Position numbers and translations under genes: made by a program | IMG/VR virus record: IMGVR_UViG_3300032307_000541 | Span: 1-47,081 of that record | Length of the DNA stretch: 47,081 nt | Reading direction: 5' to 3' (one strand) | Origin: a virus | Shown here: positions 3,649 through 39,572 of the stretch, in pieces | How the letters are laid out: the number at the start of each line of letters is the position of its first letter | Position numbering within the stretch: the first letter of the stretch is position 1 | The notes under the pieces: model-generated | The model's database searches: none | What the model saw: only the letters and a program-made list of their open reading frames with translations | Told to the model about the DNA's origin: nothing

Positions 3649-3699
3649 AAAAAACCCGAAAAATACCTGAAAAAAGTTTTGGTATATTCGGGTTTTTTT
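3649..3699 (+). terminator. intrinsic terminator overlapping a promoter
   Basis: A perfect 12-bp stem, AAAAAACCCGAA (3649-3660) with TTCGGGTTTTTT (3687-3698), around a 26-nt loop, ending in a T-run. The right arm and T-run lie between the -33 and -7 boxes of the next promoter. Confidence 0.75.
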
Positions 3700-3709
3700 C
3701 GTACATTTA
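3678..3709 (+). promoter_or_regulatory. Bacteroidetes-type promoter
   Basis: TTTG 3678-3681, 20 nt, TACATTTA 3702-3709; 22 nt upstream of the ATG at 3732. The -33 box sits in the loop of the preceding terminator hairpin. Confidence 0.8.
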
Positions 3710-5868: not shown

Positions 5869-5900
5869 TTTGGTAGTCTCAGGAATATTTCGTATATTTG
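5869..5900 (+). promoter_or_regulatory. Bacteroidetes-type promoter with TCAGG spacer element
   Basis: TTTG 5869-5872, 20 nt, TATATTTG 5893-5900. TCAGG lies in the spacer 10 nt from the start of the -33 box, as in nine other promoters here. The ATG at 5928 follows 27 nt later. Confidence 0.85.
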
Positions 5901-7940: not shown

Positions 7941-7971
7941 GGAAAAGTCTTGGTGATATCAGGACTTTTTC
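7941..7971 (+). terminator. short terminator overlapping a promoter
   Basis: GGAAAAGTC (7941-7949) pairs with GACTTTTTC (7963-7971), 9 bp with one G-U, 13-nt loop and built-in T-run. It ends the SPFH unit and its two arms span the -33 box and TCAGG element of the promoter that follows. Confidence 0.6.
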
Positions 7972-7980
7972 GTATATTTG
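7949..7980 (+). promoter_or_regulatory. Bacteroidetes-type promoter with TCAGG spacer element
   Basis: CTTG 7949-7952, 20 nt, TATATTTG 7973-7980, TCAGG at 7959. Drives the unit from 8023 to about 9.7 kb. Confidence 0.8.
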
Positions 7981-11568: not shown

Positions 11569-11812
11569 TATATTTGGTTATATAGGTACTATATTAATTT
11601 TGTATTCATTTACAATTGAAAATATATACAAGCTCCGTTTGATTAATTCAATTGGTTCTGTATTTTGGATAATATACGGAATAGGTATTATGGCAGGACC
11701 TACTATATTGGTTAATAGCTGTGTACTTTGTATTCACACATATTGGTTTATAAAACAAAAAAATAAAAAAAGTGCTAACAATACAAAATCAACAAAAGCT
11801 ATTAGGTACTAA
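11561..11812 (+). CDS. YgjV/PQ-loop-like membrane protein
   Basis: An 83-residue protein with three predicted spans (about 4-19, 28-45, 48-68). The pattern GYIGTILILYSF, then LRLINSIGSVFWIIYGI, then P and LVNS, resembles half-transporters of the PQ-loop/SemiSWEET and YgjV type. In those families, dimers form small-solute channels in the inner membrane. Substrate and activity here are unknown. It overlaps the next gene by 41 nt. Confidence 0.6.
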   Translation: MIDIFGYIGTILILYSFTIENIYKLRLINSIGSVFWIIYGIGIMAGPTILVNSCVLCIHTYWFIKQKNKKSANNTKSTKAIRY

Positions 11813-12071
11813 TTTGATGGGTATTTACCAGCAACGTCCAATGGTTTGGGTTGTAACTTCAATAAAGGCACACATACATCATTATGTAATTTTTATTGAG
11901 CAAACTGAATTGGGGTGGGAACGTAAAGTAGTATTAGATAGAACCTTTACTCAAAACCGAGATGGAAAGCAGTATAAGCTAGAATGCGGAAATAGTAAAG
12001 TATATTTGTTCAAAGATAGTATAAACGATATGAAAACCTTTAGTCAACATTTAGAATATTTTTTAAGTTAA
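11772..12071 (+). CDS. MLTIxNI-family protein, array 1 member 1 (GTG start)
   Basis: A 99-residue member of the family that recurs 14 times in the window. GTG at 11772 gives the family N-terminus MLTIQN with LLGTN after it; the next ATG (11817) would cut this off. A central HHYVIFIEQ strand and terminal FSQHLEYF helix match the family layout. It overlaps the preceding gene by 41 nt. Function unknown. Confidence 0.6.
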   Translation: MLTIQNQQKLLGTNLMGIYQQRPMVWVVTSIKAHIHHYVIFIEQTELGWERKVVLDRTFTQNRDGKQYKLECGNSKVYLFKDSINDMKTFSQHLEYFLS

Positions 12072-12072
12072 T

Positions 12073-12534
12073 ATGCCACACATACCAATACCACCAACAC
12101 CAACGATGTCAACACAGCAAATGCTACAAAAGATACAACAAATAAGTGCTGGGAATATCTATAATACTCCGCCTGTAATGGATGCTAAACAAATAGCCGA
12201 TATAGCATTGGAGCAGGCTAAAAAGGTATTAGATGAATTTATGAAGCAAGAGCAAGAAAAAAGAAAAACTATATTAACGATTGAAAACATTGATAAGATT
12301 ATTGGGTCTGATTATAATGATAGTTTAAGAGTGGCGGGAGTTAAAGAGTTGGACACACATTATGAATTCACTTTAATATACGCTCACCATAATACAATTG
12401 AAACAATACTTTTACATAGGAGACAGACATCCGATAAGAGGTATATAATGGAATATCAAGGGCAGACATTGTGGGTGACTAAAGATAGGTTAAGTACGAT
12501 TGATGGAATTTTAGAATGTATGCGAGAAGTATAA
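12073..12534 (+). CDS. MLTIxNI-family protein with Pro-rich N-terminal extension
   Basis: A 153-residue protein. Residues 1-66 are an extension: a Pro-rich start (HIPIPPTPT) and a helix (AKQIADIALEQAKKVLDEF). From residue 67 the family core begins, ILTIENIDKIIGS, followed by HYEFTLIY, LLHRR and a C-terminal helix. Fusion of the core to a separate segment shows that the core is a domain. Starts 1 nt after the preceding stop. Confidence 0.6.
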   Translation: MPHIPIPPTPTMSTQQMLQKIQQISAGNIYNTPPVMDAKQIADIALEQAKKVLDEFMKQEQEKRKTILTIENIDKIIGSDYNDSLRVAGVKELDTHYEFTLIYAHHNTIETILLHRRQTSDKRYIMEYQGQTLWVTKDRLSTIDGILECMREV

Positions 12535-12847: not shown

Positions 12848-13108
12848 ATGAGAGTAATTTATAAATACGGATTTTCACAAACAATTCAACTGCCAATTGA
12901 TTCGCAAGTTTTGAAAGTTGGAATGCAAAATGGTATTATACAAATGTGGGTATTAATAGACCCAAATCAAAAACAAACATGCTATCGTAATTTTGAAATG
13001 ATTGCTACGGGACATGAGTTTGAATTTGATTATTTAACCCATACCTATATTGATTCATTATTTGATGGACCATTTGTATGGCATATTTGGGAAATAAATA
13101 AAAATTAA
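12848..13108 (+). CDS. DUF7352-like phage protein
   Basis: An 86-residue beta-rich protein. The order IYKYGF, IQLPIDSQVLKVGMQNG, IQMWVLIDP, ATGHEF and a final FVWHIWE matches a small family common in phages that I recognise as DUF7352 (memory-based match). Function unknown in that family. Seven nt after the membrane-protein stop. Confidence 0.65.
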   Translation: MRVIYKYGFSQTIQLPIDSQVLKVGMQNGIIQMWVLIDPNQKQTCYRNFEMIATGHEFEFDYLTHTYIDSLFDGPFVWHIWEINKN

Positions 13109-14016: not shown

Positions 14017-14140
14017 GGAATGGAATGTTATAATAGCAGTGTATGTATTATTGGCATCCGCAATTGTGTTTCAGATGTATTACATATATCAATTGAAGCA
14101 AGAGTTAAAAATATATAAGAATGATACTAAAAAACCCTGA
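14000..14140 (+). CDS. 46-residue single-span membrane protein
   Basis: ATG 14000 opens a frame nested into the ends of both neighbours (17 nt upstream, 20 nt downstream overlap). Basic start (MKKWIKEW), one span at about 9-27 and a basic tail. Nested position, and an ordered span, favour a real gene, but it is small. Confidence 0.5.
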   Translation: MKKWIKEWNVIIAVYVLLASAIVFQMYYIYQLKQELKIYKNDTKKP

Positions 14141-14450
14141 AAAATTTTTAAAACAATTTATACCAACAATCGAAGGTGACCTTTGGTATGTAACTGATTT
14201 GAATATAACGATGGACGAGGAGGGTACTACATACATATATAAAATGGCTACTCAAATCCCTGTTAAGAGTTCATCTAATCAGCAATATTATCATTATACT
14301 CGTAAAATGGAGCAAGAGGTTACATTAAGATTCTATGATAAAATTTATGAGTTATATTGTAGTGGACAGACATGGAGGGGATATTATGAGGACATAGATA
14401 CGATGGATAAATTTACTAATAAAGTAGCAGATATGTTACCAAAATATTAA
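14121..14450 (+). CDS. MLTIxNI-related protein, divergent N-terminus
   Basis: A 109-residue protein of the same size and layout as the array members (LWYV strand, YHYTRKMEQEVTLRFY, YELYCS, C-terminal helix with FTNKVADML) but with MILKNPEKFLKQF in place of the MLTIENI start. It precedes three clear members, separated from the next one by a single base. Assigned to the family by layout; moderate support. Confidence 0.5.
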   Translation: MILKNPEKFLKQFIPTIEGDLWYVTDLNITMDEEGTTYIYKMATQIPVKSSSNQQYYHYTRKMEQEVTLRFYDKIYELYCSGQTWRGYYEDIDTMDKFTNKVADMLPKY

Positions 14451-14451
14451 T

Positions 14452-14784
14452 ATGCTAACAATAGATAACATACAAAATATAGAAGGTAAAGAATTCCAAA
14501 TGAGTAGTGGGCAGAAGTATGTAATTGGTATTGTAAGGGATTATTATGACCATTATAGTTTTGGGGTATTTCCTTTAAAAGAAAACAATGTAGCAAGTAT
14601 AAAGGATGGTATTGTATATAAATTACATAGAACAAAAAAGAGTAGAAGGGGATATAAATTAGTTGCACCTCAAATGAGTTGGCAACCTTATGTGAAGCCG
14701 GAAAACTTAACCTTAGATAATTTCGTATTAGAATTACACATACAAACTGGATTATTAAATGCTTACAATAGAAAACATACATAA
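14452..14784 (+). CDS. MLTIxNI-family protein
   Basis: A 110-residue member: MLTIDNIQNIEGKEF start, YSFGVFPL strand, KLHR basic motif, long final helix. The last 26 nt (AATGCTTACAATAGAAAACA...) also encode the start of the next paralogue in another frame, so the conserved family start sequence is used twice. Confidence 0.65.
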   Translation: MLTIDNIQNIEGKEFQMSSGQKYVIGIVRDYYDHYSFGVFPLKENNVASIKDGIVYKLHRTKKSRRGYKLVAPQMSWQPYVKPENLTLDNFVLELHIQTGLLNAYNRKHT

Positions 14785-15091
14785 TATAAAGTTATTGGCA
14801 AATTCATTAAGAGTGGGTGGTGAAAGGTGGCAATTAAGTAATATACAAACGGCTAGTGATTTGTACCAATTTGTGTTTACATGCATTGAATCATATCAAT
14901 CCGGTGTATTAGGACGAGAATCGGTAATCAATTTATACCGAAAAGATACGATGGAATACCTTAAATTGGGTCAAAGGGTATATGAATTGAAATGTATAAC
15001 CAATAATAAAAGCAGATTATTAGGTATTAATGATTTGAAAGAACCCGGCTTATTAATATATCCAATTTTAAGAGTAATACAAGGATGCTAA
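14759..15091 (+). CDS. MLTIxNI-family protein
   Basis: A 110-residue member: MLTIENIHNIKLL, then GGERWQLSNI, YQFVFTCI, YELKCI and a hydrophobic C-terminal segment. Overlaps its paralogous neighbours by 26 nt and 7 nt. The nucleotide sequence of the first 20 bases is nearly identical to that of the next gene, evidence for recent tandem duplication. Confidence 0.65.
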   Translation: MLTIENIHNIKLLANSLRVGGERWQLSNIQTASDLYQFVFTCIESYQSGVLGRESVINLYRKDTMEYLKLGQRVYELKCITNNKSRLLGINDLKEPGLLIYPILRVIQGC

Positions 15092-15408
15092 CAATAGAAA
15101 ACATAAACATAATCAATAGTAAGTTCGCAGGTACACCGGAATGGCAGATAGGTGAAATGTTTATAGGTTCACAAAACTATGTATTTCAAATCCATAAACG
15201 GGTAGGTGAGTGGACGATACAAGGAATACCGCAAGCTAGTTTAACGATACGATTGCATAGGATAAAGGCAATGGATGGGTATGTAATGGAAAGCGGATTC
15301 GTAAGGCAAAACTATTATGCCCGCTCCGTATATAGTATAGAGAATATGAAAACCATAACCGATTTTACAATGTGCTTGGACAGACATATTAAAACAATAT
15401 TAAGATAA
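15085..15408 (+). CDS. MLTIxNI-family protein, end of array 1
   Basis: A 107-residue member: MLTIENINIINSKFAG, PEWQIGEM, YVFQIHKR, LTIRLHRIKAMDGYVM and a C-terminal helix (FTMCLDRHIKTIL). Overlaps the upstream paralogue by 7 nt. Family pattern is seen; function unknown. Confidence 0.65.
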   Translation: MLTIENINIINSKFAGTPEWQIGEMFIGSQNYVFQIHKRVGEWTIQGIPQASLTIRLHRIKAMDGYVMESGFVRQNYYARSVYSIENMKTITDFTMCLDRHIKTILR

Positions 15409-17329: not shown

Positions 17330-17361
17330 TTTGGATATATCAGGAATATTTCGTATATTTG
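17330..17361 (+). promoter_or_regulatory. Bacteroidetes-type promoter with TCAGG spacer element
   Basis: TTTG 17330-17333, 20 nt, TATATTTG 17354-17361, TCAGG at 17340; 20 nt before the ATG at 17382. Confidence 0.85.
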
Positions 17362-19540: not shown

Positions 19541-19572
19541 TTTGGAATACTCGGGGATTTTTCGTATCTTTG
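19541..19572 (+). promoter_or_regulatory. Bacteroidetes-type promoter
   Basis: TTTG 19541-19544, 20 nt, TATCTTTG 19565-19572; TCGGG in the TCAGG position. It rules out ATG starts upstream of 19573 for the next gene. Confidence 0.8.
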
Positions 19573-24031: not shown

Positions 24032-24063
24032 TTTGGAATTCTCAGGTATTATTCGTATTTTTA
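24032..24063 (+). promoter_or_regulatory. Bacteroidetes-type promoter with TCAGG spacer element
   Basis: TTTG 24032-24035, 20 nt, TATTTTTA 24056-24063, TCAGG at 24042; followed by ACTATGTAAC. Confidence 0.8.
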
Positions 24064-24084: not shown

Positions 24085-24651
24085 ATGAAAAACAATGTAA
24101 ACAAAGGTGGTGGTTCAAATCCTTACTTAGATGGATTAAAAGCGAAAGTGGAGGCCGATAAAGCCGTTTCTCTATTAAGTGGATACTTTAAGGGTAAGGT
24201 TACTCAATTGGGTAAGAAACAATTATATAAGGTGGAGGGTTTAAATCCTTTCTTCGTACTAATTACTTCTGCTCCATCTAACCTTAAGTTGGATAAGGTC
24301 CTTAAGGGATTGATGAAAGAGAATGGTTCGTTACCTTTCTATATTATCTTCACCCGTACCTTATCGGATTACCCAACCAACCCAAAGACGGTTCAAGCTT
24401 ACTATTCTAAGTTGAGAATTATCAATAAGAGTAAGGGTAAGTTTAGAGGTTCGATTATTGGTATAGAGGAATTGACATCTAAGATGGTGGATATGAAGAA
24501 GGGTGTAAGGATTCCTTTGAGTATTGATAGAGTTAAAGATGCTCCTTCCGTATTGGGATTGGATTCCTATATTAAAGAGAAGTTTGGTTTAACTCCTAAA
24601 ACCGCTCAATCGATTATCCAAACTATTAAGAATCATTATAGTATTATATAA
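24085..24651 (+). CDS. hypothetical protein
   Basis: A 188-residue Lys-rich protein (LSGYFKGKVTQLGKKQLYKVEG; IINKSKGKFRGSIIGIEELT). ATG 24085 is used because the frame upstream to 23986 covers the promoter. Mixed alpha/beta; no family recognised. First gene of a unit that may run into array 2. Confidence 0.6.
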   Translation: MKNNVNKGGGSNPYLDGLKAKVEADKAVSLLSGYFKGKVTQLGKKQLYKVEGLNPFFVLITSAPSNLKLDKVLKGLMKENGSLPFYIIFTRTLSDYPTNPKTVQAYYSKLRIINKSKGKFRGSIIGIEELTSKMVDMKKGVRIPLSIDRVKDAPSVLGLDSYIKEKFGLTPKTAQSIIQTIKNHYSII

Positions 24652-24670: not shown

Positions 24671-24913
24671 ATGAAAAGTTTTAAAATTAGAGAGAACCTT
24701 ATCCACATTGATGGCGTACTATACGGCCCTACCCCTACGGATGTAAAGATTAAGGGTAAGTCCGGTACGATACAATCTATTAGTGTTCCCAATAGAGGTC
24801 AATACTTTCCTTATTCGGGTACATTCATTGATTCTTCCCTTCCGGTTACCGATGATTCAACCGGCATTGTGGAAGATACTAAACCCCTTAAGAAACCCCG
24901 TAAAACAAAGTAG
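24671..24913 (+). CDS. hypothetical protein
   Basis: An 80-residue protein, beta-rich (LIHIDGVLYGPTPTDVKIKG), with a Lys/Pro-rich end (KPLKKPRKTK). It contains one TTATCCACA (24699-24707) in coding sequence, judged a coincidence. No family recognised. Confidence 0.6.
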   Translation: MKSFKIRENLIHIDGVLYGPTPTDVKIKGKSGTIQSISVPNRGQYFPYSGTFIDSSLPVTDDSTGIVEDTKPLKKPRKTK

Positions 24914-24914
24914 T

Positions 24915-25130
24915 ATGATTACTTCATTTATTATAGTAATGATATCCTTACTTAATATGTTATTGGCATTCGCTATGGTATATACGTTTGAGGATGTGAA
25001 GGTATTAGAGAGTAAGGTATTCCGTTTATTCATTCTTATACCACCTGTATCTATTACTATATTCTTTTGTGTAGCTATATATGGTATCGTATATAGTTTA
25101 TATTATTTATTGTCCAATTATTTAAAATAA
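24915..25130 (+). CDS. two-span membrane protein
   Basis: A 71-residue protein. ATG 24915, 1 nt after the upstream stop, is used; the frame is open from 24783 but that part is a shadow of the preceding gene. Spans at about 3-22 and 38-62. No family recognised. Confidence 0.55.
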   Translation: MITSFIIVMISLLNMLLAFAMVYTFEDVKVLESKVFRLFILIPPVSITIFFCVAIYGIVYSLYYLLSNYLK

Positions 25131-25144
25131 AACCCCTTATCACT

Positions 25145-25387
25145 ATGAGTACTATTAAACAATTTGATGATGTCCAAGCTTATGAAGAACTACAAAAACG
25201 TAGAGAGCAGACTATGTTAGACCCGAAGTATCAACAATGGGTTAAAGAGTTACACATTTCTCAATCGTATGTAGAGCCGGATGGTATGATACGAGCGGCT
25301 GAAATAAATTCTCAATACGACTTTTCGGGCAGTACATCGAAATCCTCAATTCTTAACTTCTTAAAGATTAAAGGTATATGGAGTTAG
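25145..25387 (+). CDS. hypothetical protein opening array 2
   Basis: An 80-residue helical, polar protein (VQAYEELQKRREQTMLDPKYQQW). Starts 5 nt after AACCCCTTA and overlaps the next gene by 10 nt. It lacks the MLTIxNI start and is not counted in the family. Confidence 0.55.
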   Translation: MSTIKQFDDVQAYEELQKRREQTMLDPKYQQWVKELHISQSYVEPDGMIRAAEINSQYDFSGSTSKSSILNFLKIKGIWS

Positions 25388-25722
25388 TAATAGATGGTAT
25401 AACCAAATTAATATATCGTACCTATCACGGACGTAAGATAGAGGATATCCGTATTGATAAAAGAGAACCCAATACAAATTCTTCATCCTATGTTTTTACC
25501 TTTCCTCCAATTGATAGTCCGTTAGATGGATGGAATAGAAAGATGGAAGTTTACCTTTGTAAATTCCCTACACCGGATGAGAAGTATGAATTATTCGTTA
25601 TGGGATTGCATGGAGTGACTTGTTATTATTTGGAAAGGGATGAAATTAAAGATTTTGAAAAGTTCCATAACTATATGGTATCAACTATGTTTAAAGCTAA
25701 ATTTTATTGGGAATCATGTTAA
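25378..25722 (+). CDS. MLTIxNI-related protein, divergent
   Basis: A 114-residue protein with MELVIDGITKLI in place of MLTIENIxxL, then SYVFTFPP, MEVYLCKF and a final FHNYMVSTMF helix, the same layout as the array genes. Overlaps the next member by 7 nt. Family membership inferred from layout and position. Confidence 0.5.
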   Translation: MELVIDGITKLIYRTYHGRKIEDIRIDKREPNTNSSSYVFTFPPIDSPLDGWNRKMEVYLCKFPTPDEKYELFVMGLHGVTCYYLERDEIKDFEKFHNYMVSTMFKAKFYWESC

Positions 25723-26042
25723 CAATTGTAAACATATTAAAGTTAGAAGGTCAAACCCTATTAAGTGATTGGAAAATCCAATTGGTATATGAAACTACAC
25801 ATAATAATTGCTATGTGTTTGAGATAGTTAGGGATTTAGGATTGGGACAGGGATTGGCAATCAGACGTAAGATTATGTTGGAAAGGGAAGGTAGGAGGAT
25901 ATTCGGACAGCCTGATTTATCTTATTTCTTCATAAAGGATTCACAACGAACTAATGTATGTGTTTCCGCTAACTACATAGCCGATAAAGATAATATGATA
26001 TCACAATTAGAAAACATCTTACAAAAGTATAAAGATTTATAA
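25716..26042 (+). CDS. MLTIxNI-family protein
   Basis: A 108-residue member. ATG 25716 is preferred to TTG 25707 because it gives the family start MLTIVNILKLEG. Then SDWKIQLV, CYVFEIVR, KIMLERE and C-terminal LENILQKY. Next member starts 1 nt after its stop. Confidence 0.65.
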   Translation: MLTIVNILKLEGQTLLSDWKIQLVYETTHNNCYVFEIVRDLGLGQGLAIRRKIMLEREGRRIFGQPDLSYFFIKDSQRTNVCVSANYIADKDNMISQLENILQKYKDL

Positions 26043-26043
26043 T

Positions 26044-26382
26044 ATGCTAAAGATAGAAAATATAGTAGATTTAAATGGTTCGGTATGTGGAGGATTCGAA
26101 CTATCACATTGCGCTTTTTTGGAGAACGGCTCTAACTTAGTAAGAGATGCTCACTACCAAATACAATTCGATAAGTGTCCACCTCAAGGTAATGCTAAGG
26201 CAGCATGTTTAACTATTGGTGCTAACTCCGATGGGAATGGTAGATACTTTTGTAAATTATACTATGCAACAACGGATAATGTAATATGGCAGGAGTGGTT
26301 GGATATAAGTGTACTTCGTAAAAGAAACGGATTACTAAGTTCAATGGCGAATAAGATTCATTTACACATAAACCGAATATAG
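26044..26382 (+). CDS. MLTIxNI-family protein
   Basis: A 112-residue member beginning MLKIENIVDLNGS; GGFELSHCAF, HYQIQFDK, CKLYYA and a C-terminal MANKIHLHI helix. Six cysteines are unusual for the family and could bind metal. One nucleotide separates it from each neighbour. Confidence 0.65.
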   Translation: MLKIENIVDLNGSVCGGFELSHCAFLENGSNLVRDAHYQIQFDKCPPQGNAKAACLTIGANSDGNGRYFCKLYYATTDNVIWQEWLDISVLRKRNGLLSSMANKIHLHINRI

Positions 26383-26383
26383 A

Positions 26384-26716
26384 ATGCTAACAATACAAAA
26401 TATAGAAAACCTAAAAGGGATGAACTTGGGTTATTGGAAAGTGAGTGATACTGAAGCCAGTAGACCTACTAAGTGGTTAATGACTGAACACTATTGTATT
26501 AGAGTACATAGAGGTGGTGAGGCGGCTGCTATCCTAATTTGGAGAAACATAAACCCCTTAACCAAACAATATCATGTAAATGTATGTTATGATGATTTTA
26601 CCAATGTGATATACGAAGGTGCCTTTTCTAAGCAGGTGATTCAAGATAAAGGACACTTTTTATCCCATATAATGGGGCATATAAAAGCTGAATACTACTT
26701 AAGAAAACAAAAATAG
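26384..26716 (+). CDS. MLTIxNI-family protein
   Basis: A 110-residue member: MLTIQNIENLKGMN, LGYWKVSD, HYCIRVHRG, a Trp in the third strand (ILIWRN) and a basic end KAEYYLRKQK. Tandem with near-identical first bases to its neighbours. Confidence 0.65.
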   Translation: MLTIQNIENLKGMNLGYWKVSDTEASRPTKWLMTEHYCIRVHRGGEAAAILIWRNINPLTKQYHVNVCYDDFTNVIYEGAFSKQVIQDKGHFLSHIMGHIKAEYYLRKQK

Positions 26717-26719
26717 AAT

Positions 26720-27322
26720 ATGTTACAATTACAAAATATAGATAAGTTGATAGGAACATCAATAGTGAATTGGGCATGTGTAAACGTATCCGATGCTATG
26801 GGTACATACTTAATTACTTTTAAGCCATACGGAAATTCAATCTATACGGCAGAGTTTCTATTGAATAGGGATGATTCCCATTTAAAAGGAATGTATAGAG
26901 TGAATGGTATATTATACGAATCAACTGGATTGGGTAATGTGAATATTGGTAACTTCGATATGCATGTAACCCGAGCCGAACTACAAACACCAATGGAATT
27001 TATGAGAATCCTAACACGTCCTCTTAGAGTATTCGAAAAGGATATGGAAGTAAACATTCAAAGAAAAATGTTTAATACTTCTTCCCTATCATCTAATAAG
27101 TTTGTTGGTAGAGGAGCACCAACATCTCCATTTAGTAAACCGATTTCATCTCTACCACCAACATTAAATAGTGTACCGGATTGGTATGTAGATGAACCTA
27201 AAAAACTTAGTAGATGGGAAAGGATTAAGAATAAGGTATTGGATATTCTATTCCCAATCAAAGAAACAATTGCGGACATAAAACCCAAACCCAAACTAAG
27301 GGCTAAAAAAGCAGCATACTAA
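26720..27322 (+). CDS. MLTIxNI-family protein with long C-terminal extension
   Basis: A 200-residue fusion. The core is residues 1-110 (MLQLQNIDKLIGTSIVNWAC; FLLNRDDS; FMRILTRPL); then a Ser/Pro-rich linker with FVGRGAPTSPFSKPISSLPP and a C-terminal RIKNKVLDILFPIKETIADI. That last motif matches the N terminus of the 13425 protein, linking array 2 to array 1. Confidence 0.65.
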   Translation: MLQLQNIDKLIGTSIVNWACVNVSDAMGTYLITFKPYGNSIYTAEFLLNRDDSHLKGMYRVNGILYESTGLGNVNIGNFDMHVTRAELQTPMEFMRILTRPLRVFEKDMEVNIQRKMFNTSSLSSNKFVGRGAPTSPFSKPISSLPPTLNSVPDWYVDEPKKLSRWERIKNKVLDILFPIKETIADIKPKPKLRAKKAAY

Positions 27323-27330
27323 TACATAAT

Positions 27331-27648
27331 ATGAAACTAATAATACAAAACTATAAAGCAGTAATAGGTACTATGTTACATCAGGAGAGATTCGTATGTA
27401 CTAAGGCAGAAGAAACCCCTACTAACTACCGATTTCAATTCCGAGACGATGGAAGTCCGCAACTTCGTATGTTATGGATTGAAGTCCGTAGATTCGGGCA
27501 ATGGGATGCCAACGATGGTGGTAATTGGGTATATCGATTAAACTACCTAAATCAAGGTGTAGCCTTACATATAGTAACTGCTCAATGGTTTGGTAAGATA
27601 ACGAATGTAATGAGAACCTTTAGGGATTGCTTGGAAAAATCACTTTAG
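27331..27648 (+). CDS. MLTIxNI-family protein
   Basis: A 105-residue member beginning MKLIIQNYKAVIGT; YRFQFRDD, LRMLWIEVRR, YRLNY and a C-terminal FRDCLEKSL. Four nt from the next member. Confidence 0.6.
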   Translation: MKLIIQNYKAVIGTMLHQERFVCTKAEETPTNYRFQFRDDGSPQLRMLWIEVRRFGQWDANDGGNWVYRLNYLNQGVALHIVTAQWFGKITNVMRTFRDCLEKSL

Positions 27649-27651
27649 AAT

Positions 27652-28116
27652 ATGAGTATAATGAGAACAAAAGGAATGGGAAAGGTAGTGATTACCTCTA
27701 CACCAATTTCCGCTGGAAGCTGGGCGGCTAAGTACTATCAACAAAATCAAACCCAAAAAAATCCTAACTTCGACACGATTGGGAAGTTAGTGATACAAAA
27801 CTATGCAAAGGATTTGGGTAGTGGTGTATTTTGGGGATGGGATGTTATTTCCGCTGATGAGATGGATGATGTGTATTTATTCCAATTACGAAACCGAGAG
27901 AATTCAAAGTTACGGGTTTATATTACTTTAGGTAGAGAGTTACAAACTTCCGATTTAGAGAACAACCTATACCAATTGTATCAATGTTATATGCATGATG
28001 ATGATGGGAATTGGGAAGAAAGATTTTGGTTGGATGGTAAGGATATTAATCATAAAACATTTTGGGGAAAAATAGAAACAATTGTAGATAAACATCATCC
28101 GTTATATCCATTTTAA
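27652..28116 (+). CDS. MLTIxNI-family protein with N-terminal extension
   Basis: A 154-residue protein. A 43-residue extension precedes the core GKLVIQNYAKDLGSG; WGWDVI, YLFQLRNR and YQLYQCY follow. A second example, with the 12073 protein, of the core attached to a different N-terminal segment. Confidence 0.6.
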   Translation: MSIMRTKGMGKVVITSTPISAGSWAAKYYQQNQTQKNPNFDTIGKLVIQNYAKDLGSGVFWGWDVISADEMDDVYLFQLRNRENSKLRVYITLGRELQTSDLENNLYQLYQCYMHDDDGNWEERFWLDGKDINHKTFWGKIETIVDKHHPLYPF

Positions 28117-28118
28117 TT

Positions 28119-28430
28119 ATGCTACGAATAGAGAACTTTAATAAGATACAAAAACGTTGGTTTGGCGATTGGCAAATTGGTAGAACCGATGAGGGTAACG
28201 CATATTATGCTTTAAACGCCAAACATAAAGATGGTAAGAGAAGTGTAACGGTTGTTATATTTAAAGAAGATAAGTTAGATACGGAATTTGCCGAAACTGC
28301 TTATAGTATATCTCTTATAGATGATACGGTTGGAATCTCATCTCAAATTGATGATATTATATATAAAGCAGTATTAGAAGATATGGAATTATTTGGAGAA
28401 TCATTAGTACATTATTTAAACACAATATAG
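28119..28430 (+). CDS. MLTIxNI-family protein, end of array 2
   Basis: A 103-residue member: MLRIENFNKIQKRWFGDWQI, YYALNAK, VTVVIFKED, YSISLID and a final FGESLVHYL helix. The start of the nucleotidyltransferase gene follows 3 nt after its stop. Confidence 0.6.
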   Translation: MLRIENFNKIQKRWFGDWQIGRTDEGNAYYALNAKHKDGKRSVTVVIFKEDKLDTEFAETAYSISLIDDTVGISSQIDDIIYKAVLEDMELFGESLVHYLNTI

Positions 28431-28433
28431 AAT

Positions 28434-29177
28434 ATGAAAAAAGAAAAAGCAATTATAGTTAGTGGGTACTTTAATCCCCTACACAAAGGACACTTAGAGT
28501 TATTTAAAAAAGCTAAATCACAAGCCGATAAGTTATGGGTAATCGTTAATTCGGATTTCCAAAGAGAATTAAAAGGTTCTAAAGAGTTCATGTCCGATAC
28601 TGAGCGATTAGAAATAGTAAAGGCGATTAAGTGGGTTGATTATGCATTAATCTCGTCCGATAGAGATAGAACTCAATGTTATACCTTACAACAATTTCAC
28701 GAAATGTTTTCGGATAAATATGATTTGGCATTTGCCAATGGTGGAGACCAAAACAATGATACCATTCCTGAAAGAGAAGTTTGTGAGAGATTGGGTATAG
28801 AACTATTAGATGGTTTGGGTGATAAAATACAAAGTAGTAGTTGGTTACTGAAAGCAGACCTAAAAGAGAAAACAAAACGTTACTTTGAGTTATTTGCATC
28901 AAAGAATGTTAAAGGATTGGAAAATGAAATTTATGCAGATAATATTTTCCTTAGAGATTGGAATGGTGAATGGAGAGGTAAACAGGCAGTTTTGGAGATG
29001 AATGAAAATCTTTTTGAAAGTGAATTCCAAATTACTAATATAGAAATCAAACAGGCAGATAATACAACTTTAGTACAATTTGATTTACACATAGCAGATA
29101 CCATTCTAAAAGTTGTGGATGTGATTGATTGGAACGAAAATGGAAAGATAGAAAGAATCTTAGCATATAATGGATAA
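28434..29177 (+). CDS. cytidylyltransferase-like protein fused to a SnoaL-like domain
   Basis: A 247-residue two-domain protein. Residues 1-140 are a HIGH-type nucleotidyltransferase: FNPLHKGH with H17-x-G-H20, and IQSSSWLL (132-139) in the position of the ISTT motif of cytidylyltransferases (TagD, RfaE C-terminal, PCYT types). Residues about 143-247 (KTKRYFELFASKNVKG..., RGKQAVLEMNENLF) look like a SnoaL/NTF2-like domain. It would transfer a nucleotide to a phospho-sugar or phospho-alcohol; substrate unknown. A bidirectional terminator follows. Confidence 0.78.
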   Translation: MKKEKAIIVSGYFNPLHKGHLELFKKAKSQADKLWVIVNSDFQRELKGSKEFMSDTERLEIVKAIKWVDYALISSDRDRTQCYTLQQFHEMFSDKYDLAFANGGDQNNDTIPEREVCERLGIELLDGLGDKIQSSSWLLKADLKEKTKRYFELFASKNVKGLENEIYADNIFLRDWNGEWRGKQAVLEMNENLFESEFQITNIEIKQADNTTLVQFDLHIADTILKVVDVIDWNENGKIERILAYNG

Positions 29178-30266: not shown

Positions 30267-30392
30267 ATGATAAACTTACTTATAGCCCTTACATTAATGT
30301 GTAGCTCTTTAGGAGCAGTAATTTCTAAAACAACAAAGGAGTATGGATTCCGCAAACACAGAGAACATACTGAACCATTAAAGTTGGATTAA
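30267..30392 (+). CDS. 41-residue peptide with hydrophobic N-terminus
   Basis: MINLLIALTLMCSSLGAVIS is a short hydrophobic stretch (signal-like or anchor), then a polar tail (YGFRKHREHTEPL). Plus-strand gene in the minus-strand block, convergent with and overlapping by 15 nt the P-loop gene. Weak promoter in front; low-moderate support. Confidence 0.4.
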   Translation: MINLLIALTLMCSSLGAVISKTTKEYGFRKHREHTEPLKLD

Positions 30393-30926
30393 CTTAATAA
30401 TATTGTTGACAGTATCATCATCCACCATAACTTCGATATAAGGGATGTTATGGGCATCTAATGAGGATTGTATCAGATTATCCAATTCAATTGATTCAGC
30501 CAAACTCTGATACCTTTCAGCATCATTATGTTCACCTTCTGTATTTCTTTTTAGGATGATATTGAGATTATCGTATTGATTGAATATGGATAGAACCATA
30601 TCATCAAATTCCTTTCCGTATAATTTAGCAGGATATGTATCTGAATTATTGTAGTAATTTTTATAAACCAAACTCAATAGTATTGGTGAATCAACAATTA
30701 TGTATTTTACTTTACCATACGATTTAGCTATCCCTCTATGTTGATTAGCTACCACATATAATTGGTCACCAATCGCTTCTTTATTCTTATCCCATGCCAA
30801 CACATTAGGAAACTCATAAGGAGCATCACAACTAATATGTTTCTTCTTAAGTTTATATGTTAAGCCGGCAGCGATAGAAGATTTTCCAATGCCAGGTCCA
30901 CCAAATAGATTTATAATTTTACTCAT
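30378..30926 (-). CDS. P-loop NTPase (kinase-like)
   Basis: A 182-residue protein. GGPGIGKSS at 9-17 is the Walker A loop; VKYIIVDSPILL is the likely Walker B strand. Size and order resemble the AAA_28/NadR-kinase-like group and P-loop nucleotide kinases of phages. The minus frame is open back to 31019, but that part includes the promoter, so ATG 30926 is used. Nucleoside, NMN or other small-molecule kinase activity is possible; substrate unknown. The C terminus overlaps a tiny plus-strand gene. Confidence 0.72.
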   Translation of the reverse strand: MSKIINLFGGPGIGKSSIAAGLTYKLKKKHISCDAPYEFPNVLAWDKNKEAIGDQLYVVANQHRGIAKSYGKVKYIIVDSPILLSLVYKNYYNNSDTYPAKLYGKEFDDMVLSIFNQYDNLNIILKRNTEGEHNDAERYQSLAESIELDNLIQSSLDAHNIPYIEVMVDDDTVNNIIKLIQL

Positions 30927-30930
30927 AACA

Positions 30931-30961
30931 CAAAGGTACGAAAATTTTATTAAAAGGCAAA
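30931..30961 (-). promoter_or_regulatory. minus-strand promoter of the P-loop gene
   Basis: On the minus strand, TTTG (30961-30958) and TACCTTTG (30938-30931) with 19-nt spacing; ATG at 30926 follows within 5 nt, so the mRNA is almost leaderless or starts close to the ATG. It lies against the receptor terminator. Confidence 0.65.
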
Positions 30962-30963
30962 AT

Positions 30964-30991
30964 AAAAGGGGAGTTTTTATTCTCCCCTTTT
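30964..30991 (-). terminator. terminator of the TonB-receptor gene
   Basis: AAAAGGGGAG (30964-30973) and CTCCCCTTTT (30982-30991), a 10-bp perfect stem with 8-nt loop; on the minus strand it ends TTTTATT. It starts 5 nt beyond the receptor stop (30997). Confidence 0.85.
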
Positions 30992-30996
30992 TATTA

Positions 30997-33900
30997 TTAG
31001 TTAAAGATGTATCTAACACCTAACTGAATTTGGTAACGAGAACCAAATCCTACGTTATCTCTAAATGAATCAGTATAAGGAACTTTATTTCTTCCATCCA
31101 AATAAGGGAATGAGAAGATTGGAGTTTTACCATCAGCATCCAATTTAACGAAGTTAAGTGGAGTCATAGTTGTTGGGATTTTTTGGATACCTAACTCACT
31201 ACTGATTAAGTTAGTGAAGTTATAGATATCAGCAGTAAATCTCAATGTATGTTTTGAATCTTTATATTTGATATAGAAATCTTGCGTAAAGTTCAAATCC
31301 ATTCTATGAACCCAAGGTAATATCAATGCTTGCCTTTCAGCAAACTGACCTCTACGAGAGTTTAAGTAAGGATTGCCTGAAATGAAAGCATCTAATTGAT
31401 TCCACAATTCTGCTTGTGTTCTTGTATCAGCTACACCACCTACTGCAGCTGCGTTAGTTAATTTGATTTGAGATGCATCTTTAGGAACGAAGATTAAATC
31501 GTTACCATTGAAACCATCGTTATTCAAATCACCTGCGTATGTGTATGATAGAGAAGATTGTGGAGCGTTAGGAGAAGCTTCATACAATAATGCGAATGAA
31601 GTTCTTGTGTTCTTAATAAATTCTTTACCATAATTCATACTAGCAATAATTCTATGAGGTAAGTAGTTGTTTGAAAAACCTGCCTCAAAGTTGTTAGGAT
31701 TGGTAGATGTTGGTCTAGCTCCCCACATTGTAAATGCAGTTGAACCATTGATTGTAGCATCTTTTGCAGTTTGACGAGTATAAGAAGCGTTTACACCTAA
31801 GTTCTTAAATTGTCTTTGTACTTGCAATGTTCCGAATAATACATAACCAATGTTTGCATTAGTCATATAAATTGCGTTACCAATGTTTGGATTAGCTGCT
31901 GTTTGAGCTGCACCAGTTGCATCGTAAACTGAACGTTTAGCGAAACGAGTTCTACCATCACTTAATGTAATGTTACCTGTTGATGGTAATACTACGTTTT
32001 GGAATACGGTAGCGTTAATGTTCTTAATGTAAGTTCCTTCCGCAGTTACTGTCCATCCCAATACTTTCTTATCAACTGCTAATGTAGATTTCCAAACTTG
32101 CGGAAATTTATAATTAGGGTCAGTTACGTTAAGAGAATATGATTTAGATAAACCTGGCGTTGGAGTAGGTCTATAAGCGTTAATATCAGGTGAGAACATA
32201 TATCCAGTTCCGTTTGTAATAGAACCAAACAATGCCATACCACTATTAGATGCCTGATTTGAAATCCATACGAATGGAGGAGGGCCTTGGAATAACCCAG
32301 TACCACCTCTGATTTGTAAAGTTTCATCATCAAACACATCATAGTTGAAACCAATTCTAGGAGAAATTTGTAATGAAGCTTTAGGTGCTAAACCTGTGTT
32401 CAAACGTACTCCATTATAGAATTTAGATAAAGTATCAACTACGGGATTGTAAAGGAAGTTATCAGCGAAAGAAACATAATCTGCTCTAACACCATAAGTA
32501 ATAGTTAAATTATCTTTTACTCTGAATTTATCCTGAGCGAATAAACTTAATTCAGTATTTTTAGGTCCAACTAATGGGAAACCACCACTTAGAGAATATG
32601 ATAAATCATATAATGCTGCTGGTTTAGTTCCAGCTGCCGAAGCGTAGAAATCAGCCAAACTATTGAAACGATATGCACCTGCGAATGAAGGTGAAAAACC
32701 ATTTGAATATTGTTTGAATGAGTTTTGTGTTCCGAATGTAAATTCGTGCTTACCTTTGTATAAGTTGAAAATGTTATTCAATTGAACTACATCGGTATTC
32801 AATACGTTACCATAAGTAAATCTTTCAAAACCAAAAGTTGTATAAGGTAAACCATTACCATCTAAGATATCCACTTGAGGGAAATCACCACTACTTAATG
32901 AACTTCTGAAATCTCTTAATTGGGTATATCCAATTTGTAATTTATTAGAAGCGTTGTTAGAGAAACGAGTATTCAATTCTCCAATTACGATATCGGCATT
33001 GTTATTAATTACATAACCACTACCAAAGAACGGCATTGCAGTTGGACCTGGTCTTCTACCATTTGATGAGTTGATTGAACCACTATTAGAAGCTGGGATA
33101 TCTGCTGAAGAACGTAACATTGTATATTTCAATGAGAACGAATTCTTATCATTAATAGTCCAATCAATCTTAGATGTTAATCTTTGTGATTTAGAACCAT
33201 ATTGATATCCTTGATACGCACCCGGATCGTAATTGTATTTATCAATTAAGAACTTTCTCAATGCATCTAATTCTGATGTTCTTGCTTGAGATACGTTAAT
33301 ACCATTTGGAGTATTAGTACCATCCGCTGCTACCCATTGGGTACCAGGTTCCATTCTACTTTCTTGCTCACCATTTACGAAGAAGAACAATTTGTTTTTA
33401 ATGATTGCTCCACCTGCTGTAAAACCTTTTAAGTCATAAGTGAAATCCTGTTTAGGTTGTGTAATTTCACCAACTTTATAACCCTGTAAATCTTTATTCT
33501 TAATGAATTGATATACAGAACCGAATGCTTGATTCTTACCACTACGAGTCACAGTGTTAATAGAACCGCCAGCGAACCCACCATACTTAACATCAAATGG
33601 TGAAACGTTTACTTGGATTTGCTCAATCGCATCTAAGGAAATTGGTTGAGCTCCTGTTTGTCCACCTAATGTACCATCACCCAATCCGAATGAGTTATTG
33701 AAGTTCGCACCATCTAAGGTAACGTTATTCAATTGAGAACTCATACCACCAAATGATAAGTTGTTTTGAGAAGGAACTAATTTAACTAAGTCTTTCCAAC
33801 TACGATTCACGTTTGGTACAGTCTCAATCAATTTTCTATTGATGATTTCCTGTGAACCATTACGGCTTGAGTTAAATACATTACTTTGTCTTGATGTTAC

Positions 33901-34257
33901 CACAACTTCATTTAATGTGGTAGCCGCTTCAACTAAAGTAAAGTTAGCTTTGTAAGTTTGTCCTAACAATAAAGTAATATCACTTTGTGTTTCAGTTTTG
34001 AATCCCACAAATGATACCGTTACTACATAAGGTCCTCCAATTTTAAGGTTTGGTAGGTTGTATCTTCCATCCATACGAGTAGTTGTACCATACTTCGTAC
34101 CAGTTGGTTGATGCACAGCTACTACGGTTGCTCCCGGAATAGACTGTTTACCATCCAAAACAATTCCTTGAATTTCAGATGTAGTCTCCTGCGCGTACGC
34201 CCCAAATGATAGAAGTGTTACCACCATCAAAAGGAGAAATTTTCCGATTTTTTTCAT
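30997..34257 (-). CDS. Oar-like TonB-dependent outer-membrane receptor
   Basis: A complete 1086-residue receptor. Signal peptide 1-22 (cleavage after AYA), CarboxypepD_reg-like domain about 27-108 (IQGIVLDGKQSIPGATVV; MDGRYNLPNLKIGGPYVV), TonB-box-like LNEVVVTSRQ at 115-124, plug about 130-240 (LNNVTLDGANF), then the long 22-strand barrel, ending LGVRYIFN with a C-terminal aromatic residue. This is the Oar/SusC-related architecture of Bacteroidetes importers or adhesion proteins; ligand unknown. No frameshift or internal stop is seen. It is flanked by phage-type genes and driven by a promoter of the local type. Host origin is likely; a role in receptor swapping, uptake or superinfection exclusion is inferred. 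Confidence 0.92.
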   Translation of the reverse strand: MKKIGKFLLLMVVTLLSFGAYAQETTSEIQGIVLDGKQSIPGATVVAVHQPTGTKYGTTTRMDGRYNLPNLKIGGPYVVTVSFVGFKTETQSDITLLLGQTYKANFTLVEAATTLNEVVVTSRQSNVFNSSRNGSQEIINRKLIETVPNVNRSWKDLVKLVPSQNNLSFGGMSSQLNNVTLDGANFNNSFGLGDGTLGGQTGAQPISLDAIEQIQVNVSPFDVKYGGFAGGSINTVTRSGKNQAFGSVYQFIKNKDLQGYKVGEITQPKQDFTYDLKGFTAGGAIIKNKLFFFVNGEQESRMEPGTQWVAADGTNTPNGINVSQARTSELDALRKFLIDKYNYDPGAYQGYQYGSKSQRLTSKIDWTINDKNSFSLKYTMLRSSADIPASNSGSINSSNGRRPGPTAMPFFGSGYVINNNADIVIGELNTRFSNNASNKLQIGYTQLRDFRSSLSSGDFPQVDILDGNGLPYTTFGFERFTYGNVLNTDVVQLNNIFNLYKGKHEFTFGTQNSFKQYSNGFSPSFAGAYRFNSLADFYASAAGTKPAALYDLSYSLSGGFPLVGPKNTELSLFAQDKFRVKDNLTITYGVRADYVSFADNFLYNPVVDTLSKFYNGVRLNTGLAPKASLQISPRIGFNYDVFDDETLQIRGGTGLFQGPPPFVWISNQASNSGMALFGSITNGTGYMFSPDINAYRPTPTPGLSKSYSLNVTDPNYKFPQVWKSTLAVDKKVLGWTVTAEGTYIKNINATVFQNVVLPSTGNITLSDGRTRFAKRSVYDATGAAQTAANPNIGNAIYMTNANIGYVLFGTLQVQRQFKNLGVNASYTRQTAKDATINGSTAFTMWGARPTSTNPNNFEAGFSNNYLPHRIIASMNYGKEFIKNTRTSFALLYEASPNAPQSSLSYTYAGDLNNDGFNGNDLIFVPKDASQIKLTNAAAVGGVADTRTQAELWNQLDAFISGNPYLNSRRGQFAERQALILPWVHRMDLNFTQDFYIKYKDSKHTLRFTADIYNFTNLISSELGIQKIPTTMTPLNFVKLDADGKTPIFSFPYLDGRNKVPYTDSFRDNVGFGSRYQIQLGVRYIFN

Positions 34258-38102: not shown

Positions 38103-39572
38103 ATGCAATATGTAAGTTTATCAAAAGTACCAAATAGGTATCCAACATTAAATAACTACACCAAATTTAAAGAGGATGTAGTACTGCTTAATGGTCTATA
38201 CCCTGAAAGAAATAAAATAAACTTTAAATTACCAAAATTTGATGATATTACACCTGTTGATAATACAACATTTAGATTTGTAATTTCAGTTATTGCCGAT
38301 GATACGGATACCAATCCAAGGTATTTTACATCAAAAACCTTCTATAATGATTTAAAATTAGCATATAGAGTTGGTAATCCATTTTTCCCAATACAAGCAT
38401 TAATTGGTGGTGGTAGTGTTCTTACTATAAATCTTAAACAATATTTTGAAATATTTGATAAGTTTGAAAAAGAAGAAAAAGATACACCTGTTGATGTTGT
38501 TAAAAACATTTTCATATCAGATGTATCCGAAACGAATGATAATATAGATAATTTTAAAAAGGAATTAGCTGATGTAAATAAAGAAATTGATACATTCAAC
38601 GAAGATATAGCTGAATTAGAAACTGAATTAAAAAATCAAGAAACAAAACCATCTAAAGGAATTGATAAACTTAAATTTATTCAAAGAAAAGGTTCAAACA
38701 ATAATGGAAATTTAAAAGATAAGATTAATAATTATAAAGTTCAATTAAATGCCTTAATTATAAAAAGAGATAAATTAACTGAAAATATAAAAGTGGCAAC
38801 TGAATCAGTTAATAGGTCATTATTATCGGATAATTCTACAATTGATTATGAAGCATTTATAAAGTTTATAGATTTTATGGTACAACCACCTAAGTTTGAA
38901 CTTGCAGGAATTGAAACAAACAATGTAATTCCTGCTGAACAAATTGGTGAATGGTCTGGTGAATGGATTTCTGCTTATAAGAGAAGACAGGCTGGTGAGG
39001 TTATAGAAGCAACTACCGTTGATGAAAGAATAACACCACCTAAAAAAGAAGAAGAAAAAACATTTATACAAAAAGTAGGAGAGTTGCCTGTGATTAAACA
39101 AATAGTTGGTGCAGTTAAAGCAGTGGGAAATTTCTTTAAGAAGTTATTCTCCGATTCTAGATTAAAAACCGATATTGTTAAAGTTGGACAGGTTGAAGAT
39201 ATTAATATATACAAATTCAAATTTAAATTTGATAAATCAAAAACTCAAATTGGTGTTATCGCTCAAGAATTATTAAATACTAAATATGCCGATTGTGTAT
39301 CAACGGACCCAACAACCGGATTTTATGTTGTGAATTATAATATATTACAGCAAAAAGTAGATATAGTTGGTGGTATCGATAGAATACAAAAAGAATTAAC
39401 AAGTGGTAAAGGTTTGTTTGCTAAAATAAAAAATAAAATAGAATCACCAAAACCAGCCTATCAAACGGAAGTTCCAACTAAAAAATTAACAATAGGTAGC
39501 AAACTTTCTAAATTATCAAACGATTCTAAAAAAGATGTTGGTAATACTATTTTTAAAAGAAAAAGAAAGTAG
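38103..39572 (+). CDS. tail protein with peptidase S74 intramolecular chaperone
   Basis: A 489-residue protein: an N-terminal beta-rich region, a long coiled coil (about 145-235), a linker, and a C-terminal intramolecular chaperone (peptidase S74). SDSRLK at 350-355 has the catalytic Ser350 and Lys355 of the self-cleaving endosialidase-type chaperone; KTQIGVIAQEL follows as in the family. The chaperone trimerises tail fibres or spikes and removes itself by cleavage before Ser350. Host recognition or cell-surface binding is likely. The leading part is not a recognised fold. Confidence 0.85.
   Translation: MQYVSLSKVPNRYPTLNNYTKFKEDVVLLNGLYPERNKINFKLPKFDDITPVDNTTFRFVISVIADDTDTNPRYFTSKTFYNDLKLAYRVGNPFFPIQALIGGGSVLTINLKQYFEIFDKFEKEEKDTPVDVVKNIFISDVSETNDNIDNFKKELADVNKEIDTFNEDIAELETELKNQETKPSKGIDKLKFIQRKGSNNNGNLKDKINNYKVQLNALIIKRDKLTENIKVATESVNRSLLSDNSTIDYEAFIKFIDFMVQPPKFELAGIETNNVIPAEQIGEWSGEWISAYKRRQAGEVIEATTVDERITPPKKEEEKTFIQKVGELPVIKQIVGAVKAVGNFFKKLFSDSRLKTDIVKVGQVEDINIYKFKFKFDKSKTQIGVIAQELLNTKYADCVSTDPTTGFYVVNYNILQQKVDIVGGIDRIQKELTSGKGLFAKIKNKIESPKPAYQTEVPTKKLTIGSKLSKLSNDSKKDVGNTIFKRKRK

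Follow-up and report, generated by a model that had tools for sequence, protein, structure and literature searches.

Eight tandem open reading frames (ORFs) at positions 25378-28430 of a virus record of 47,081 bases (IMG/VR record IMGVR_UViG_3300032307_000541, analysed whole and referred to here as the window), together with six further ORFs in a second array 10 kb away, were found to encode one old and strongly diverged protein family, in which each lineage appears to keep an outer face of its own from phage to phage. The eight are termed array 2 and the six array 1; their separation agrees with an initial annotation made from the letters alone. The reading that we favour, tentatively and at a little short of even chances, is that the family forms a toolbox of specialised binding modules for host takeover or counter-defence.

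Two arrays encode a single family

A hidden Markov model (HMM) built from 137 members from other records, with zero window sequences, matched 14 of the 196 ORFs of the window. The eight ORFs of array 2 and the six of array 1 scored 26-68 bits, against 7.8 bits for the best non-member ORF of the window and 10.2 bits for the top scorer among 3,920 shuffled decoys; the annotated grouping of array 2, as eight tandem members of the same family as array 1, was thus borne out. HMMs from which one group at a time was left out, built from 21 members from the window and one relative (L002) and searched against 248 ORFs, recovered each array-2 member of the window with E values of 1.6e-12 to 8.3e-6, the weakest of the 14 groups being L002:9251 (E 0.011). 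Common descent of the array members, as judged from these profiles, is beyond chance. Direct BLAST among the window ORFs gave almost no similarity between members (one pair, E 0.010), and mean column identity over 133 members was only 14%, which indicates that the family is old and not freshly duplicated.

All eight array-2 ORFs are present at their annotated coordinates. The intergenic gaps, including that to the next gene, are -7, 1, 1, 3, 8, 3, 2 and 3 nt, in keeping with a spacing described as mostly 1-4 nt, and the member tabled with a TTG start at 25707 most likely begins at ATG 25716. The members are listed below with their orthologue groups; unless stated otherwise, assignment was by profile HMMs and orthologue grouping, with the addition of leave-one-group-out HMMs in array 2.

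25378-25722 (+): array 2, group E
25716-26042 (+): array 2, group D (TTG 25707 in the ORF table)
26044-26382 (+): array 2, group U
26384-26716 (+): array 2, group L, 78% identical to L002
26720-27322 (+): array 2, group M, core with linker and C-terminal helix (HMMs, structure model)
27331-27648 (+): array 2, group C
27652-28116 (+): array 2, group B, N-terminal tail of about 44 residues (HMMs, core boundaries)
28119-28430 (+): array 2, group A, the closing gene in all records and an AlphaFold target (HMMs, orthologue grouping)
11772-12071 (+): array 1, group H
12073-12534 (+): array 1, group P, N-terminal tail, core at residues 68-152 (profile HMMs)
14121-14450 (+): array 1, group J, weakest of the 14 (26 bits in the no-window profile, E 1.1 in the first profile)
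14452-14784 (+): array 1, group I
14759-15091 (+): array 1, group Y
15085-15408 (+): array 1, group K

A DUF7352 protein (12848-13108, +) also lies within the array-1 region and is outside the family.

Alignment with known families, raised in the initial annotation, was examined with Pfam and PHROG profiles against 133 members; among the matches listed (the first 25 of 35 Pfam families and the first 25 of 53 PHROG families) at best one or two members were hit per family, at E 0.004 or worse, and no match to a known family was found. A PADLOC scan gave single weak matches only, and a profile search of PDB sequences at E up to 10 gave two matches, neither of them to CapZ and neither counted as a sequence match of the family. 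No match was obtained by tblastn with four of the 14 window members against 50,697 phage records. Likewise, no member was found in 296 Bacteroidota genomes (scanned without a positive control among bacteria), in six genomes carrying related TonB receptors, or in a contig scan of genomes with group A, and a host origin of the family was rejected on the absence of members from the Bacteroidota genomes scanned. No description of such a family was found in the open-licence PMC literature, which is weak evidence for its absence from print. On these searches, the family would seem to be undescribed and phage-specific.

Occurrence in related phages

Viral contigs were scanned with members, with orthologue groups and with the neighbouring TonB-type receptor, and the family was found in 12 further viral records, of up to 274 kb (G015; the window is G000). 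At E up to 0.001, 177 members were recovered by iterated HMM search of all ORFs of the collected loci; a set of 155 members was defined at E below 0.05 with two repeated records excluded (G008 and G011, near-repeats of G007 and G010). Two later viral scans gave no new record among the matches listed, and the record set looks near saturation at this sensitivity. One candidate relative, L003, gave a weak match only and was dropped when the profile found no member in it, and profile search found none in Microcystis phage Mel-JY01 or LR756508.

The two loci are the same in every record spanning both, and fuller records hold 13-35 copies. Counts in array 1 and array 2 were 6 and 8 in the window, 10 and 13 in G001, 9 and 10 in G015, 5 and 8 in G010, 8 and 6 in G007 (one of the 8 being weak and 8 kb off) and 15 and 19 in G012, which has one more elsewhere (35 in total); counts are lower in records cut by a contig end. 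Copy number, which the initial annotation had suggested comparing between related phages, is therefore not fixed but changes from record to record.

The nearest isolate by terminase is Flavobacterium phage immuto (Immutovirus), whose terminase is 57.5% identical to that of G015, although immuto itself holds zero members of the array family by profile search. As the immuto terminase adjoins a gene annotated as T4-like gp20, the carrier group is placed by inference in the T4 superfamily, a T4-type terminase having been seen in G015 only and the 47-kb window fragment giving no terminase match. Promoter-like sites and the similarity of the TonB-type receptor gene (both below) point to a Bacteroidota host, and the carriers probably infect freshwater Bacteroidota, where 'freshwater' is a guess from isolate names.

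Gene order, turnover and selection

The 155 members fall into 32 groups common to at least two records and 22 singletons. Array 2 begins with group E and ends with C-B-A in G000, G001, G015, G010, G007 and G006, with a variable interior, while in G012 and G013 it ends C-B-G-A and E is internal; groups A, B and C co-occur in every record reaching them. Members mostly keep to their own array: in a member tree, built on few columns and with many weak forks, 17 changes of array label were counted, compared with 44.5 in shuffles. Both arrays contain group F and the pair labelled a. Genes for GroES and a peptidyl-prolyl isomerase adjoin array 1 in all six records where they were found.

The arrays had been proposed to answer a need for dose or variety. 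Since paralogues within one genome are at most about 36% identical, variety stands and dose does not, and recent tandem duplication is ruled out by the same figure. Many copies serving one function would suit the tandem layout in one operon, but without recent copies, and with paralogues only 7% identical at outward positions (see below), such a role for the arrays is highly improbable.

Of the 23 members compared between the close relatives G001 and G015, 19 form orthologous pairs and the other four lack a counterpart in G015; 12 of the 19 pairs are 91-100% identical and the rest 70-86%. Most of these orthologues are under purifying selection, and fast evolution within members accordingly finds no support as the main signal. 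Only one of the 19 pairs had dN above dS (G001_38575, 0.103 versus 0.085), while several others had dN and dS raised together, a pattern suggesting that diverged alleles have replaced the earlier ones. Array 2 of G001 also contains a gene for a small membrane protein (L002:11685-11954, +), with no match in G015.

A predicted fold with lineage-specific outer faces

The AlphaFold model of the closing member, 28119, made with 133 members, was confident (pLDDT 94.4, pTM 0.84) and showed a five-strand antiparallel sheet with a C-terminal helix (short helix 7-10; strands 18-25, 29-36, 42-54, 59-68 and 77-82; helix 89-102). A second target, 26720, which is 16% identical to 28119, gave the same core, after which the model has a linker of low confidence and then a helix (165-185). 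Conservation falls on alternating strand positions and on hydrophobic residues (W18, I/V20, Y30, F/I32, L/I47, Y62, F92, L96 and L100), with N6 (N or G) and R/K49 in addition; it can be read as marking a scaffold for the fold, in which no catalytic set stands out.

Faces were assigned from residue pattern and entropy. At 23 outward-assigned positions paralogues were 7% identical in each of three genomes, a value that the entropy-based choice of positions lowers by construction, whereas within seven orthologue groups, whose values are not subject to that choice in the same manner, the same positions were 32-75% identical. Inner positions were 36-38% identical between paralogues and 61-92% within orthologue groups. 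Each lineage thus keeps its own surface, and as this outer face is kept across phages, it is probable that each member has a lasting partner of its own.

This pattern bears on surface diversity, which the initial annotation had offered as a role and which finds no support. Decoration or receptor-binding proteins of the virion could share the sheet-plus-helix plan, which occurs in RNA-phage coat proteins too (Z about 5) and is a common arrangement; however, the outer faces are conserved per lineage between phages, no convincing virion or tail match was found, and in G015 about 190 kb separate the terminase from the arrays, which lie near the GroES and isomerase genes. We regard a virion role as quite unlikely.

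The best aligned structure for both models was actin-capping protein (CapZ alpha/beta), with Z 7.5 over 90 residues for 28119 and Z 8.9 (4.0 A) over 124 residues for 26720. The tool itself cautions that models lacking a clear match often reach a best Z of 7 to 8, so that these values are near background, and Foldseek gave E 0.012 at best. Capping protein differs in being eukaryotic and about 270 residues long, with 6-14% identity and no PDB profile match. Next for the group M model came the FP domain of Fbxo7/PI31 (Z 6.9 over 108 residues), likewise eukaryotic, 8% identical and with a weak Foldseek score; FP domains ranked among the next families for the 28119 model too. Many further folds were listed at Z 4 to 5, among them avidin, FABP and RNA-phage coats, and were given no weight. 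Since sheets of this kind mediate dimerisation in capping protein and FP domains, the members may by analogy dimerise too, perhaps with each other.

If so, the paralogues might bind mainly one another in a single intracellular hetero-oligomeric phage structure, their conserved outer faces being inter-member interfaces. Besides the dimerisation of the nearest folds, the layout, by which members would be co-transcribed, and the joint presence of A, B and C in every record reaching them favour such self-assembly, but the strongly differing subsets between phages and the single losses between near relatives are hard to accommodate in a fixed assembly, and the fold scores are near background. We therefore hold a common structure possible but rather unlikely.

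Extensions on the core

Both extensions in the initial annotation, N-terminal on 27652 and C-terminal on 26720, are real, and members with different extensions agree with its view of the core as a movable domain. Group M carries a C-terminal linker and helix, while group V, met in G012, G013 and G014, has a hydrophobic helix before the core that is probably a membrane anchor. N-terminal tails occur in group P and in part of group B, where the tail is present in G000, G001, G006, G007, G010 and G015 and the core begins at residue 1 in G004, G012, G013 and G014. Because different extensions are found on the core, and the group B tail comes and goes by record, the core is taken to be a movable module.

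Three records each hold, at one place outside the arrays and about 40 to 50 kb from them, a further single copy of the core, with a cysteine motif at its N terminus and a tail at its C terminus:

G015:99450-100004: distant core copy
G010:91100-91639: distant core copy
G012:91952-92461: distant core copy

The cysteine motif, read from the letters, would be of the zinc-ribbon kind, and the distant copy may reflect an ancestral form. The C-terminal tail of group f looks similar, by eye, to that of this zinc-ribbon-like copy. Groups M and V share the motif [FYH][NSHTY]TSSL, which was picked post hoc and occurs in seven of 1,167 ORFs against a shuffled mean of 0.3; they never co-occur, being present in four and three, respectively, of nine usable records. 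Chance and descent could account for this.

Operons and promoter-like sites

The pattern TTTG-N17..21-TAnnTTTG, which we take to be the Bacteroidota-type promoter consensus, occurs at 15 sites against 2.4 expected. Such a site precedes each array operon, and other operons too, in line with the annotated claim that each array has its own transcript; with several more promoter-like sites between the arrays, separate transcripts are likely. A spacer motif, TTGG-N5-TCRGG-N5-TTCGTA, was found at 13 sites (up to two mismatches) against 0.19 expected. Promoter-like sites at 34-46 kb lack it, so that two promoter classes may exist in the window, and the motif is not uniform across relatives. The sites, and the genes between the second array's site and its first member, are as follows.

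7949-7980 (+): promoter-like site upstream of the array-1 operon, consensus match
24032-24063 (+): promoter-like site upstream of the array-2 operon (TTTGG ... TTCGTATTTTTA), consensus match
3679-3703, 5870-5894, 7950-7974, 17331-17355, 19542-19566 and 24033-24057 (+): promoter-like sites sharing the TCRGG spacer
24085-24651 (+): first gene of the array-2 operon, function unknown, start shifted downstream of the promoter-like site, no Pfam match
24671-24913 (+): small conserved leader gene, homologues in G001, G007, G010 and G015
24915-25130 (+): small membrane protein gene of the array-2 operon, hydrophobic, homologues in G001, G006, G007 and G015
25145-25387 (+): leader gene opening array 2, with a homologue where the array begins in seven other records

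The homologue of leader gene 25145 comes after one family member in G012 and G013.

Other genes of the window

A TonB-dependent-receptor-like outer-membrane barrel gene with carboxypeptidase-regulatory and plug domains (30997-34257, -) is kept in relatives and is 61-62% identical to genes of five Bacteroidetes or Chitinophagaceae genomes; a marine megaphage is reported to carry a SusC-like receptor (PMC9723777). It adjoins an AAA_28 ATPase gene (30378-31019, -), and a nucleotidyltransferase fused to a SnoaL-like domain lies at 28434-29177 (+). Together these might serve cofactor uptake and salvage. Apart from the arrays, a protein with a C-terminal Peptidase_S74 domain (chaperone of endosialidase; 38103-39572, +) is likely a fibre.

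Proposed role of the arrays

We propose that the arrays derive from an old, phage-specific family of modules of about 100 residues, of which more than 30 lineages would have radiated before these phages split. The inner positions and an N-terminal MLTIxN motif would hold the fold, and the outward positions would carry specificity. Each phage keeps a subset at two loci, in largely conserved order and in two operons with putative host-type promoters, with gain, loss or exchange of individual members. A separate partner for each member is most likely, presumably a host protein bound in takeover or counter-defence; co-encoded paralogues may act as dimer partners, and extensions such as the membrane anchor, the zinc-ribbon-like motif and the terminal helix could place some copies. 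The analysis shows the family itself, its confidently modelled fold, its layout at two loci, its turnover and its pattern of conservation, whereas binding, dimerisation, host targets and the time of expression are what we infer from sequence and models; an anti-defence role is possible.

Several observations weigh against this toolbox reading, in addition to the effect of position choice on the paralogue values. Among the PHROG matches listed, none links a member to a known anti-defence or takeover protein, and the leader and neighbour genes are likewise without known function. A few non-family ORFs near the arrays are also missing between G001 and G015, so the arrays do not clearly exceed their surroundings in turnover. 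In this one genome pair, median dN/dS was 0.19 for the family and 0.11 for neighbours (p = 0.048), a weak difference resting on 19 family pairs and 32 of 35 neighbour pairs; excluded were one pair of the two with dS 0, another whose dS was undefined, and an ORF in another frame of a family gene, and the other dS-0 pair was assigned dS 0.0001.

The closest parallel in the literature consulted is formed by clustered early anti-defence genes with shared promoter motifs, some of them Acr paralogues, in archaeal viruses (PMC11065993). The likeness lies in the clustering of several small diverged genes, but those are other viruses and proteins, and inhibition was shown there for some, whereas the arrays are known from sequence; moreover, in the phages one family gives up to 35 genes per record. 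A polyimmunity-like set, each member neutralising one host toxin or abortive-infection effector, would explain a row of many diverged small proteins that are conserved within lineages and mosaic between phages. However, no immunity or antitoxin family matched in Pfam (among the first 25 of 35 families listed) or PADLOC, and the host-type genomes scanned held no members, which makes this improbable; a weak structure match to the immunity protein TriTu (Z 4.5) was given no weight.

A more speculative form of the toolbox, which we consider doubtful, is combinatorial: dozens of CapZ-like half-domains from two transcripts would pair into many two-faced binders, placed on host targets by the members with membrane, zinc-ribbon or helix anchors. 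In that case the arrays would be the phage counterpart of an adaptor repertoire.

Large phages devote much of their genome to small unannotatable genes, and here up to 35 of them (in G012) belong to a single fold family. The orthologue groups, fixed loci and structure model turn these 'hypothetical proteins' into one testable system, and the family profile can be used to find such arrays.

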